Source: an uncultured Selenomonadales bacterium (lineage in GTDB: Bacteria; Bacillota; Negativicutes; Acidaminococcales; Acidaminococcaceae). From it: 64,000 nt of DNA. How positions within the stretch are numbered: position 1 is the stretch's first letter; the number at the start of each line of letters is the position of its first letter. The stretch spans positions 1 to 64,000 of the forward strand of contig OMWZ01000013.1 in NCBI GenBank assembly GCA_900314855.1. Direction: 5' to 3'. The notes below the pieces were generated by a model. The model made no database searches, was not told where the DNA came from, and saw nothing but the letters and a program-made list of their open reading frames with translations. This document shows, piece after piece, positions 46,105 through 52,730 of this stretch. Position numbers and translations under genes: made by a program.

Positions 46105-46527
46105 TTATTCCTTGGATTTTGACAGCGTTACCGTCTTGAGGCGGGCTTCGGCACGCTTCAAGTCGGCCTGGGCCGCCGGCAGGTCGATTTCCTGATCCAG
46201 GTTTTCGATCTTCGCCTTAGCGCGTTCCAGGGCTGCCTGTGCCTTTTCCACATCAATGGATTCGGCAAGTTCCGCGGCTACGCTTAAGACCGTAACCACG
46301 TTGTCCTTGACCTCCAGGTATCCCGTGTCCACAAACAGATAGTGTGCCACCCCGTTGTCGTCGCGGTATTTCAGCGGCGCCGCATCGAGGGCCGCGACCA
46401 TGGTGGCGTGCCGGGGCAGGATGCCGACGGCGCCGCCTTCCGTGTGGGCGTCGATGTAGGAGATGTTGTCTGCCTGGAATACATAGGAATCCGGGGACAG
46501 GACATTCAACTGCATTAAATTAGCCAT
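46105..46527 (-). CDS. atpC: ATP synthase epsilon subunit
   Basis: This 140-residue subunit of the F1 central stalk links rotor and catalytic head and inhibits ATP hydrolysis. It has an N-terminal beta-sandwich (about 5-85, GGAVGILPRHATMVAAL) and a C-terminal helical hairpin. ATG at 46527 has GGAG upstream; it lies four bases after atpD and is last in the operon. Confidence 0.96.
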   Translation of the reverse strand: MANLMQLNVLSPDSYVFQADNISYIDAHTEGGAVGILPRHATMVAALDAAPLKYRDDNGVAHYLFVDTGYLEVKDNVVTVLSVAAELAESIDVEKAQAALERAKAKIENLDQEIDLPAAQADLKRAEARLKTVTLSKSKE

Positions 46528-46531
46528 AAGC

Positions 46532-48765
<2,234 letters not shown>

Positions 48766-48772
48766 CAGTCAC

Positions 48773-50620
48773 TCACCTCTTTCCGTCAGAGGGGGTAAAA
48801 GTCTGCTTGAAGTCTTCAATAGCCTTCTTCAGAGCTGCTTCATTAGCGTCGGTGATTTTCTTGTTCTTGACAATATCTTCGCCGATTTCCGGGGCGTTCG
48901 TGTCGAGATATTTCAGCATTTCCGCTTCAAACCGGGTAACATCGGACGTCGCTACGTCATCCAGATAGCCTTTCGTGCCCGCGAAAATGGACATGACCTG
49001 CTTCTGGACAGGCAACGGGGAGTACTGGGGCTGTTTCAGCAGTTCCGTCATGCGGATACCGCGGTCCAGCTGTGCCTTCGTGGTCTTATCCAGGTCGGAG
49101 CCGAACTGCGCGAAAGCAGCCAGTTCGCGATACTGGGCGAGGTCCAGGCGAAGGGTACCGGCCACGCTCTTCATGGCCTTGATCTGCGCGGAACCGCCTA
49201 CGCGGGAGACAGACAAGCCGACGTTGATGGCCGGACGGATACCGGCATAGAACAGGTCCGTTTCCAGGTAGATCTGGCCGTCCGTGATGGAAATGACGTT
49301 GGTCGGGATATAGCCGCCTACGTCGCCTGCCAGGGTCTCGATGATCGGCAGGGCCGTGATGGAGCCGCCGCCGGCCTGCTCGTTCCGACGGGCCGCGCGT
49401 TCCAGCAGGCGGGAGTGCAAATAGAAGACATCGCCAGGGTACGCTTCGCGTCCGGGCGGACGGCGGAGCAGCAGGGACATGGCGCGATAGGCCACGGCGT
49501 GCTTGGACAAGTCGTCGTAGATGCAGAGCACGTCTTTGCCCTGATCCATGAAATACTCGGCCATGGAAACGCCGGCGTACGGAGCCAGGTACTGCAGCGG
49601 CGCGGACTGAGCGGCCGTAGCGGCCACGATGATGGTATAGTCCTTGGCGCCATATTTTTCCAGGGTACGGGACAGACGGGCAACAGTGGATGCCTTCTGG
49701 CCGATGGCAACGTAGACGCAGATGACGCCGTTGCCTTTCTGGTTGATGATCGTATCGATAGCGATAGCCGATTTGCCCGTACCGCGGTCGCCGATGATCA
49801 ATTCGCGCTGGCCACGGCCGATAGGTACCATGGCGTCAATGGCCTTGATACCGGTCTGCAGGGGCACATCGACCGGTTTCCGGTCGGCAATGCCCGGCGA
49901 CGGGGATTCGACGGGGCGGGTCGCGTTGTATTTGATTTCGCCCAGGCCGTCGATAGGTTCGCCCAGGGGGTTGACGACGCGGCCCAGCAGGCCATCGCCG
50001 ACCGGAACCTGCATCAACTTGCCCGTGCGGCGGACGATGTCGCCCTGCTTGACGGTCGTTTCCCCGCCCATCAGAACGATACCGACCCGATCCGGCATCA
50101 GGTTCTGGACCATGCCGGACACGCCGCCGTTCAGGGATACCAGCTCACCGGCCATGGCATGGCCCAGGCCCGTGACGGTCGCAATGCCGTCGCCGACCTT
50201 TTCGATGGTGCCGACTTCTTCCATGTCGGGCTTGATATCCGTCTCTTCGACAGTTTTCGCCAGGCTTTCCGCAACGGCGGAAAAGTCCGTGAGGGACCCC
50301 TTCGCGTTGTTTTTGGCCATGGCGTCGCTGACCTTTTCCATTTGACGCTTCACGCTGGCGTCATAAATCTGATCGCCGGCTTTTAAGACAGAACCGCCGA
50401 TAATGGAAGGATCAACAGTGGTTTCCAAGTATACCAGATAGCCCAATTTATCGCCGATAAATTTGGCTACGGTGTCTTTTTCAGATACAGTGAGTTCTTT
50501 TGCCGTCGTCAGGACAACGGGGATAATGCCGTTGCTGGCAACGGACTTCAGCTTGTCACCCGCGAGCTGGAGTTTATCCAGGCTCTTGAGGATCAGGCTC
50601 AGTTTTTCGTCGCTAGCCAT
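48773..50620 (-). CDS. atpA: ATP synthase alpha subunit with fused delta C-terminal domain
   Basis: This 615-residue protein is about 110 residues longer than a normal alpha subunit. Residues 110-615 are a complete alpha ([11 protein letters not shown], Walker A GDRGTGKS at 277-284, then the usual head). Residues 1-105 match the C-terminal half of delta (OSCP): a helix-strand pattern, the [10 protein letters not shown] segment (69-78) and [12 protein letters not shown] (82-93). No separate atpH exists between atpF and atpA, and the N-terminal domain of delta is missing. The join is in one frame with no stop. Delta normally ties alpha to the b stalk; here the link would be covalent. The ATG at 50620 follows GGAGGTGAAAG. 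Confidence 0.95.
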
Positions 50621-50714: not shown

Positions 50715-51197
50715 TTATTTGTTCAGGACGGAATCGGCAGTCTTGGCAACCAATTCCTGGTCAGCGGCAGAATTGAGCTTCTGATCGACGACTTTGCCGG
50801 CGATTTCCGTCGCTAGGGCGATTACCTGGGCGCGGACGTCCGTCATGGCCTGATCCTTTTCATTGGCGATATTCTGTTTCGCCGCAGCCATCATCTGATC
50901 CTTTTCAGCCTGGGCCTGTGCTACATAATCGTCATGAACCTTCTGGCCGGCTTTGTTGGCCTTGTCGATAATAGCAGTCGCTTCCGTGCGGGCTTCAGCC
51001 AGCTGTTTGCTGTACTGTTCCTTCAGGGCTTCCGCTTCGACGCGGGTCTTTTCAGCGGTTTCCAGATCGTTGGCAACACGCGCGCGGCGTTCGTCCAACA
51101 CTTTCATCAACGGTTTGTAGGCGAATTTTGCCAGGATGAAGAGGAGGATGAGGAAATTTAAAATCTGCCAAAAAAATGTTGCATCAAATTGTATCAA
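50715..51197 (-). CDS. atpF: ATP synthase b subunit
   Basis: This subunit of 160 residues or so forms the peripheral stalk. It has an N-terminal membrane helix (FFWQILNFLILLFILAKF) and a long charged helix. The length is normal, and it ends without any delta extension, so it is not a b-delta fusion as in mycobacteria. The start is probably TTG at 51197 (AAGGAG eight bases upstream), because the GTG at 51206 abuts the ribosome site. Confidence 0.93.
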   Translation of the reverse strand: MIQFDATFFWQILNFLILLFILAKFAYKPLMKVLDERRARVANDLETAEKTRVEAEALKEQYSKQLAEARTEATAIIDKANKAGQKVHDDYVAQAQAEKDQMMAAAKQNIANEKDQAMTDVRAQVIALATEIAGKVVDQKLNSAADQELVAKTADSVLNK

Positions 51198-51247
51198 TTT
51201 CAGCACTCCTTTTCATGTCTATCAAGCAGATTCCCCAGCGGGGTCGC

Positions 51248-51499
51248 TTATTTTACGAACGGGTTCGCGAACACCAGGACGATGGCGATAACGACAGCGA
51301 TGATGGGAATAGATTCGATCAGGCCGACAGAAATGAACATGTTGACCAGGAAGGAGGAGGACTGTTCCGGCTGACGAGCCATGCATTCGAGAGTCTTGGA
51401 GGTAACCATGCCGTCACCTTTGGCAGCGCCCAGGGCAGCGGCTGCGCCAATGATACCTGCGGCCAATACGGAGGCAGCTACGATAATTGCGTTTTCCAT
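51248..51499 (-). CDS. atpE: ATP synthase c subunit with two carboxylates
   Basis: This 83-residue hairpin of two membrane helices forms the rotor ring. The loop ARQPE (41-45) is typical. The ion-binding Glu62 is followed by Ser63. Opposite it, where the Na+ enzyme of Ilyobacter has Gln32, this protein has Asp29 (KGDG), with the same 33-residue spacing. An acidic pair of this kind (Glu32/Glu65) was described for the Na+-driven c-ring of Fusobacterium. Na+ coupling is therefore plausible but unproven. Confidence 0.96.
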   Translation of the reverse strand: MENAIIVAASVLAAGIIGAAAALGAAKGDGMVTSKTLECMARQPEQSSSFLVNMFISVGLIESIPIIAVVIAIVLVFANPFVK

Positions 51500-51599: not shown

Positions 51600-52301
51600 T
51601 CAGTGCTTGACGAACGACGGCGCGATATTGATGATAGACAGCATCGTGAAAACGAAGGCCTGCAAGACGCCGACGAAGAGACTGAACAGTACCCAGATGT
51701 CAGGGATGACCCAGGGGCACAACTTATACAAGACAATCAGAAGAATTTCGCCGGCAAGGATATTACCAAACAGACGAAGTGCCAAGGTTACGGGTTTCGC
51801 GATTTCTTCGATGAGGTTCAGCGGTAAGAACGGAAGATACGGCTTCACAAAATGGCCGAAATAGTGGATCCCGTTGCGGCCGATACCGTAGATGTAAGCG
51901 ATGACCATAACCAGGATGGACAAGGCAAAGACGGTGTTCACGTCGTTCGTGGGCGAAGTGAAGTGTACGCCGATGCTCGGCAGGAACACACCCAGTTCGT
52001 TGGAAACGAACAGATAGAGGAACAGCGTGAAGAAGAATGCCTGCAGTTTTTCGCGGCCTTCCTTCCCCAAGTTGCTTTCAATCAGTCCGCCCAGGGCGTC
52101 GAAGAACATCTCCAAAGCTACCTGCGCGCGGCCCGGAATCATTTTGGACCCGGACGTGATACACCAGACGATGACAATCGTGAGAATGCACGCGAGCCAG
52201 CTCATGTAGAGCGTCTGCATGCGGACCGTCATGCCGAGGAAGTCCAGCTGCATGGGCAGGTAATGGATAATCTCGTTGCTTGCTTGTTCAGCAGTTCCCA
52301 T
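51600..52301 (-). CDS. atpB: ATP synthase a subunit
   Basis: This 233-residue membrane stator subunit forms the ion half-channels with the c-ring. It has five to six membrane helices. The essential Arg lies in LALRLFGNILAGE, and NELGVFLP is present. The length is normal. It lies 18 bases after atpI, and a 100-base gap with a hairpin separates it from atpE. Confidence 0.96.
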   Translation of the reverse strand: MGTAEQASNEIIHYLPMQLDFLGMTVRMQTLYMSWLACILTIVIVWCITSGSKMIPGRAQVALEMFFDALGGLIESNLGKEGREKLQAFFFTLFLYLFVSNELGVFLPSIGVHFTSPTNDVNTVFALSILVMVIAYIYGIGRNGIHYFGHFVKPYLPFLPLNLIEEIAKPVTLALRLFGNILAGEILLIVLYKLCPWVIPDIWVLFSLFVGVLQAFVFTMLSIINIAPSFVKH

Positions 52302-52319: not shown

Positions 52320-52730
52320 TCACGGCCGGCGAATATCTGTAGGGTTCTTTCGGCGCGTGAAATTTAGTAAATTAAAAATAAATATAATATGTAACAGGAC
52401 AAAGCCCAGCAGCAGCGGTGCCGCTGCCAGTCCCAGTCCCAACATACTACAAACGAAGATAACCGCGAGACTCACGCGGGTGACCCGCATACTGTTCACC
52501 AGACCCCAGGCCCGCTCGGGATGCAGGGTGGAATACCACGCCCAGACAAGGACGATCACCACGTCCAGCAGGGACCAGGCCAGGGCACACAGCCAAGAGC
52601 GCAGGGCACCGCCGGAAAGCAGGAGGCAGCCGGCGGCCCCCACGAGGGCCGTCAGCCAGGACTGGCGTCTCCAAAGCCGCTTCAAGGCCGCCATGACGTC
52701 GGTCGGGCTACTTCCTCTGAAATCCAGCAT
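52320..52730 (-). CDS. atpI: ATP synthase subunit I (AtpI-like)
   Basis: This 136-residue membrane protein has four hydrophobic segments (about 27-45, 50-67, 83-100, 104-122). It matches the ATP synthase I family, which helps c-ring assembly or Mg2+/Ca2+ handling. The assignment rests on topology, size and its place as the first gene of the operon. ATG at 52730 has GGAG upstream. Confidence 0.85.
   Translation of the reverse strand: MLDFRGSSPTDVMAALKRLWRRQSWLTALVGAAGCLLLSGGALRSWLCALAWSLLDVVIVLVWAWYSTLHPERAWGLVNSMRVTRVSLAVIFVCSMLGLGLAAAPLLLGFVLLHIIFIFNLLNFTRRKNPTDIRRP

Follow-up and report, generated by a model that had tools for sequence, protein, structure and literature searches.

The window analyzed here, a 64,000-nucleotide stretch of contig OMWZ01000013.1 from an uncultured Selenomonadales bacterium, carries on its minus strand an ATP synthase operon with the gene order I-a-c-b-[deltaC-alpha]-gamma-beta-epsilon, an order already proposed in a first-pass annotation and borne out by the ORFs and by the operons of relatives. 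Ahead of the fusion gene lie an atpI-like gene (52320..52730, 136 aa), placed by position and by partial similarity in relatives; atpB for the a subunit (51600..52301, 233 aa), an ORF identified by position and a BLAST match in the operons of relatives; atpE for the c subunit (51248..51499, 83 aa); and atpF for the b subunit (50715..51206, 163 aa; PF00430, E 4.1e-37). Behind it follow atpG for gamma (47950..48765, 271 aa; PF00231), atpD for beta (46532..47953, 473 aa), assigned from its ORF and relatives, and atpC for epsilon (46105..46527, about 140 aa), whose start was picked from relatives. The window gamma lacks its last ~38 residues compared with relatives: near 47960-47965, 125 bases present in the relative L098 are absent, comprising the last ~38 codons, the stop and the GGGAGG ahead of beta, so that gamma now ends in KNYR and overlaps the beta start. 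Either the strain has lost these bases or the assembly is in error here.

The fusion gene itself (48773..50620, minus strand) starts with an ATG at 50620, stops at 48773-48775 and encodes 615 aa. Residues 1-27 (50540..50620) align as short N-terminal helices, modeled with low confidence by AlphaFold2 at residues 3-15 and 21-27, and their counterpart is mostly missing in the relative G042. They precede the delta/OSCP C-terminal domain (residues 28-101, 50318..50539), which matched positions 98-172 of the 172 in PF00213 (E 3e-14, 53.9 bits, cut-off 22.3) and which also aligned with delta/OSCP chains of the PDB. The profile search that had been proposed for the N-terminal part, run on the first 105 residues alone, gave E 6.7e-16 and 59.3 bits against the same cut-off; the OSCP-like similarity claimed earlier thus holds, while its extent, given as residues 1-105, narrows to 28-101. 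A linker and the alpha N-terminal helix come next (residues 102-136, 50213..50317), a region delimited by its collinearity with chain I of the engineered enzyme 9jc1 and by an entropy comparison, in which the helix motif is degenerate. The remainder is a complete F1 alpha (residues 116-615, 48776..50275) with the ATP-synt_ab_N domain, the nucleotide-binding domain and the C domain all whole (PF02874 2-69/69, PF00006 1-213/213, PF00306 1-126/126), and the protein scored 791.1 bits against the F-type alpha model TIGR00962 (cut-off 484.45). Both profiles therefore confirm the central observation that a delta C-domain and a whole alpha form a single protein. Structure prediction added little: the AlphaFold2 models were poor for the full fusion (25-row alignment, mean pLDDT 51.3, pTM 0.26) as well as for the first 138 residues (27-row alignment, mean pLDDT 57.3), and the Foldseek matches obtained with them were weak, being mostly delta/OSCP chains (best E 3e-5), with 9jc1_I on top for the full fusion at E 8e-42 yet at a TM of only 0.20.

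The whole genome (1,829,522 bases, 33 contigs, 89.5% complete) gave a single PF00213 match at E <= 10, the fusion itself, and no match at E <= 1 to a delta N-domain profile, in line with the earlier reading that atpH and the delta N-domain are missing. As this genome is only 89.5% complete, the absence of both across the family weighs more.

We therefore turn to the family Acidaminococcaceae (Negativicutes). The PF00213 scan found an OSCP match above cut-off in 50 of 59 family genomes, and in all 50 the C-domain stands in frame with alpha; 42 of these were read as sequence and eight through counterpart contigs in the named collection, three of which end within the fusion locus. A search for F1 alpha found none in the other nine genomes (G028, G033, G034, G037, G041, G047, G049, G052 and G054), the matches in G049 and G052 being partial and at no more than 29-31%, so these genomes are without the operon or without the contig carrying it. 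The delta N-domain profile matched nothing at E <= 0.1 in any of the 59 genomes (E 0.12-0.48 in three), while it reached E <= 1e-35 in four sister-family genomes, which are the source of four of its 11 rows. No free atpH was found above cut-offs in the 59 genomes; 11 PF00213 matches below cut-off elsewhere in them (E between 0.0014 and 0.27), some of which cover positions of the N-domain, were taken as chance. The reported stops in G042 and G002 sit upstream and both fusion genes are open, and the alpha part is interrupted in two genomes, by a stretch of N in G045 and by a frame break in G055. The window enzyme is thus a further member of this fused set, from the Succiniclasticum group of the family. 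Over its first 139 residues, the nearest named contigs, RUG237 and RUG113 of uncultured Selenomonadales, match it at 92%.

A survey of the Negativicutes, as had been suggested, placed the fusion family-wide in the Acidaminococcaceae, with no atpH above cut-offs there. It covered 253 genomes with a minimum completeness of 90, and in 211 of 213 non-family genomes, rows being listed for part of these, the best PF00213 match had E <= 1.4e-41, as a full-length delta would give. The two exceptions were G146, which is fused, and G149, where half a delta, the N-domain side, lies at the end of a contig. The scan of the named collection confirmed 57 loci, 40 fused and 17 unfused; 38 of the fused loci come from family genomes, and the other two are labeled Selenomonadaceae (L150) and Schwartzia (L148). 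Among the MAGs with these labels, the fusion lies at L090 and L150 (both genome G146) and at L148, and that of G146 is 81% identical to the window fusion across all 615 residues, which reflects either transfer or mis-binning.

Fusions were also present in other Bacillota. The phylum sample held 398 genomes, 332 with a PF00213 match at E <= 1e-4; 24 of these, picked for weak or double matches, were examined, and the fusion counts are lower bounds. Read as sequence, 13 of the 24 carry a delta C-domain in frame ahead of alpha, in nine further families: f51 (G293, G336, G437 and G461, the last cut by a contig end), f31 (G273, G565), f69 (G352), f133 (G484), f100 (G384), f50 (G554) and f142 (G535), along with f144 (G542) and f78 (G320), where the fused operon is a second one beside a canonical operon. 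Pfam, run on seven of the 13, found OSCP above cut-off in all seven (barely in G535, at 23.3 bits) together with the alpha domains. Apart from cut contigs, the order in these operons is a-c-b-[deltaC-alpha]-gamma-beta-epsilon, and the 11 fused genomes without a second operon gave no further PF00213 match at E 0.001. Six more genomes (G358, G393, G448, G472, G586, G644) are fused as judged by frame length only. The remaining 11 of the 24 comprise canonical deltas (G288, G552), N-domains only (G423, G496, G519, G606, G626), a contig-end fragment (G414) and three odd architectures. In G611, b has an OSCP-like tail; G547 has, between b and an alpha that is not fused, a free 80-aa delta C-domain gene (L249:4962-5204, PF00213 36 bits), which is the only PF00213 match of that genome at E <= 0.001; and G316 encodes a 290-aa delta (L235:6692-7564) with an N-domain part and two tandem OSCP C-domain matches in an otherwise ordinary operon. 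Two short ORFs of the genus g216 (L250:6204-6587 and L251:3396-3710) hold a delta N-domain only, and no other ATP-synthase genes were matched in the 10-14 kb of sequence covered there.

The trees support at least two origins of the fusion, since a single clade for all fusions was rejected (AU p 8.9e-9), and parsimony would allow up to four. Fused rows of non-family genomes, 11 in all, fell in three places on a quick tree, but a single origin of these rows was not rejected (p 0.226).

The family f2, sister to the fused family in the alpha+beta tree (SH-aLRT 99), has a different arrangement. In both f2 genomes examined (G059 and G272), a full-length delta (192 aa) is followed by a separate 110-aa gene encoding only a delta C-domain (delta') and then by an unfused alpha, with 4-base overlaps at delta/delta'/alpha; the contig of G272 stops 96 codons into alpha. 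The Pfam match of delta' in G059 covers profile positions 99-172 only. In a C-domain tree of 57 domains and 72 columns, few by the program's own warning, the 43 fused domains formed one clade (98/80), to which delta' was sister (bootstrap 96, SH-aLRT 83). The f2 arrangement is a plausible intermediate on the way to the fusion, and duplication before fusion is the history favored by the best tree; it is not forced, as the constraint grouping delta' with the delta of its own genome was not rejected (p 0.344).

Among known systems, the mycobacterial b-delta fusion also joins a delta part covalently to a neighboring stator subunit, but there delta is joined to b and alpha is left free, and the delta N-domain and one stalk are kept. 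The window operon is not of this type, its b being a free 163-aa protein with no OSCP match. The N-type (alternate) F1Fo ATPase is not known to have an atpH, and its b model TIGR03321 was weakly matched by the window delta domain (24.3 bits). The window alpha, however, scored only 614.4 bits against the N-type model TIGR03324 (cut-off 750.5), and the N-type gene order, beta-epsilon-a-c-b-alpha-gamma, is different (PMC5709465). The same source names delta-less transcription units in Clostridia, with no delta-alpha protein fusion mentioned in its excerpted text.

The closest counterpart is an engineered one. When the first 177 residues were compared with the PDB, only 9jc1_I matched at E <= 1e-10, query residues 31-174 aligning with residues 2-144 of the chain. 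This is the deltaDeltaN-alpha FoF1 of Ueno et al. 2025 (PMC12229609), in which the delta N-domain of the Bacillus PS3 enzyme was removed and the C-domain fused to alpha to permit several stalks. Both proteins carry a delta C-domain on the N-terminus of a complete alpha, with a junction collinear over 144 residues, and both enzymes lack a delta N-domain and a free delta, as far as the 89.5% complete window genome goes. The window fusion differs in being natural and in having 30 extra N-terminal residues, its own linker and a degenerate alpha N-helix, and the engineered enzyme is also without the epsilon C-domain (PMC12229609).

The fusion is thus real and conserved, and it has been briefly reported before for relatives. 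The Discussion of PMC12229609 states that Acidaminococcus fermentans, UniProt G4Q3K6 and A0A1I2C5T3 have similar features, the same gene architecture as here, and calls a multi-stalk structure in A. fermentans, a member of the same family that is fused in our scan, 'highly likely'; the natural fusion is therefore already in print, with its multi-stalk part as a prediction. A0A1I2C5T3 may, at a guess, be the protein of Succiniclasticum ruminis. The excerpted text of that paper names these three natural examples and holds no free delta-C gene, phylogeny or fusions from other families, comparisons that the sister-family gene pair and the other-family fusions now supply. Among the open-licence papers listed by our search, PMC12229609 alone was recognized as describing a natural delta-alpha fusion or a natural multi-stalk enzyme, and in that literature no prior report of the sister-family intermediate, the other-family fusions or the relaxed alpha helix described below was seen. 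The sister-family delta', the fusions of other Bacillota, which span nine or more further families, and the relaxed alpha N-helix are thus apparently new.

Alpha occurs three times in F1. Three delta C-domains per F1 follow from this alpha3beta3 arrangement, as had been deduced earlier, unless the N-terminal part is removed. The accompanying picture of three C-domains facing one b dimer stands for the C-domains, and its single b dimer is doubtful. With a delta C-domain on each alpha, F1 would present three identical docks for b2 instead of the one set by a free delta. The delta N-domain, sitting on the three-fold axis, limits wild-type enzymes to one stalk, and its loss would lift this limit, so that more than one b2-a stator, and up to three, could assemble. 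Such an enzyme would couple each ATP to c x a / 3 ions and could make ATP at a low ion-motive force. We lean toward this reading, an enzyme with three b2 docks, most likely more than one b2-a stator given the loss of the delta N-domain, a raised ion/ATP ratio and ATP synthesis at low ion-motive force, although the three docks, an occupancy above one, the higher ratio and the physiological benefit are all inferred.

The engineered enzyme speaks to occupancy in both directions. Its a and b subunits reached 2.2x and 1.8x wild type on gels, and its H+/ATP ratio was 5.8 against 3.0 (PMC12229609). Since each of its sites can take its own b2-a stalk, multiple stalks in the natural enzymes are at least as likely as one. 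On cryo-EM grids, particles with 0, 1, 2 and 3 stalks made up 15, 51, 26 and 8%, a mean of 1.26, and activity was reduced (PMC12229609), so three docks need not be filled. The fusion might therefore merely replace the tether of the delta N-domain, with one b2 on one C-domain and the other two empty. Besides the 51% of one-stalked particles, this single-stalk alternative would draw on the covalent joint, which would make up for the lost docking of delta-N, and on the a, b and c genes, of which just one each was matched in the window operon and in the fused operons fetched whole. Against it, the engineered enzyme averages two stalks by gel stoichiometry and H+/ATP, and Ueno et al. put the low cryo-EM count down to grid preparation (PMC12229609). 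The sister family has, moreover, added a second delta C-domain beside a full delta, a step that extra b docks would need and that a role in tethering only would not predict. We consider a single stalk a serious but distinctly less probable outcome.

The start of alpha carries a further trace of the missing domain. A conserved helix (consensus RPEEISSIIKQQIE) opens the canonical alphas, and the N-terminal region of alpha touches delta (Ueno et al., PMC12229609). Mean column entropy of this helix was 1.13 bits in canonical alphas (n=31, many families), 1.94 in the fused set (n=41: 40 from the family plus G146) and 2.27 in the other fusions (n=11), whereas the start of the barrel next to it remains conserved in all three (0.73, 0.51 and 1.01, respectively); the samples are unequal in breadth, a bias that for the family opposes the result. 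The helix is therefore relaxed in both fused groups, which fits with the loss of the delta N-domain.

If the N-terminal 105 residues were instead split from alpha, by an internal start or by proteolysis, a free delta C-domain and a normal alpha would result. Of the 34 fusions with a delimitable linker (that of G535 was excluded), 33 do have start-like codons (ATG, GTG or TTG) there, and in nine of the 34 an SD-like stretch precedes one. However, their positions are not conserved; the window ATGs, at residues 94, 101 and 133, are preceded by no SD-like stretch of the tested set; the linker of G554 has no start codon; and those of G013, G437 and G542b have no ATG. An internal start is thus unsupported as a general mechanism, and we regard such a split as very improbable. 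As for an artefact of assembly or annotation, in which a deletion would have brought atpH and atpA together, the window genome is indeed an incomplete assembly and the adjoining gamma deletion was not seen in the compared relatives. The fusion is, however, present in every family genome with an OSCP match above cut-off, including the single-contig assemblies G001 and G006, and the isolates that carry it, S. ruminis DSM 9236, Phascolarctobacterium faecium DSM 14760 and A. fermentans WCA-389-WT-5B, already refute this explanation, whose probability is negligible.

Taken with the trees, the multi-stator reading suggests a history that we put forward tentatively, at somewhat below even confidence: multi-stalk ATP synthases would have evolved naturally more than once. 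In the Acidaminococcaceae lineage, the delta C-domain would have been duplicated as a free dock for b, then fused to alpha, and the full delta lost, while other Bacillota would have made the fusion separately; the single genomes with a free delta C-domain minus the N-domain, or with a delta of two C-domains, are counted within this multi-origin reading. Beside the size of the c-ring, the number of stators per motor would then be a second gear ratio open to evolution, one that suits cells living at a low ion-motive force.

The size of the effect can be estimated from the relation of Ueno et al. (PMC12229609), in which ions per turn equal c x a. By our own arithmetic, assuming a ring of 10-15 and two or three a subunits, about 7-15 ions would be used per ATP, and at 50 kJ/mol roughly 78-35 mV would be needed, against about 155 mV for c10 and one a. 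A natural enzyme of this kind, having two or three stators, would break the rule stated by Ueno et al. and, if true, would account for ATP being made where the driving force is below what ordinary enzymes require. The prediction of several stalks is directly testable in the cultured A. fermentans, P. faecium and S. ruminis.

The succinate and glutamate fermenters of the family have a low-energy lifestyle. Of the 59 family genomes, 51 gave a match to the Na+-pump decarboxylase beta subunit (PF03977) at E <= 0.001, 50 of them above cut-off, and so did all 38 of high quality; the 89.5% complete window genome gave no match. The glutaconyl-CoA decarboxylase of A. fermentans appears as a reference title in PMC5662883.

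The c subunit of the window has an Asp at the position of Gln32 and ES at 65-66, in the Ilyobacter numbering. We dropped Asp32 with Glu65/Ser66 as a two-carboxylate signature, as canonical Negativicutes have the same motif. Nor is the motif uniform within the genus, position 32 being Asn in S. ruminis (G044, same genus) and also in Phascolarctobacterium genomes. The c subunits of two fused operons of the family f51 (L232:4489-4752 and L234:8546-8809) have Gln32, ES at 65-66 and a Tyr, which is presumably the Na+-binding pattern.
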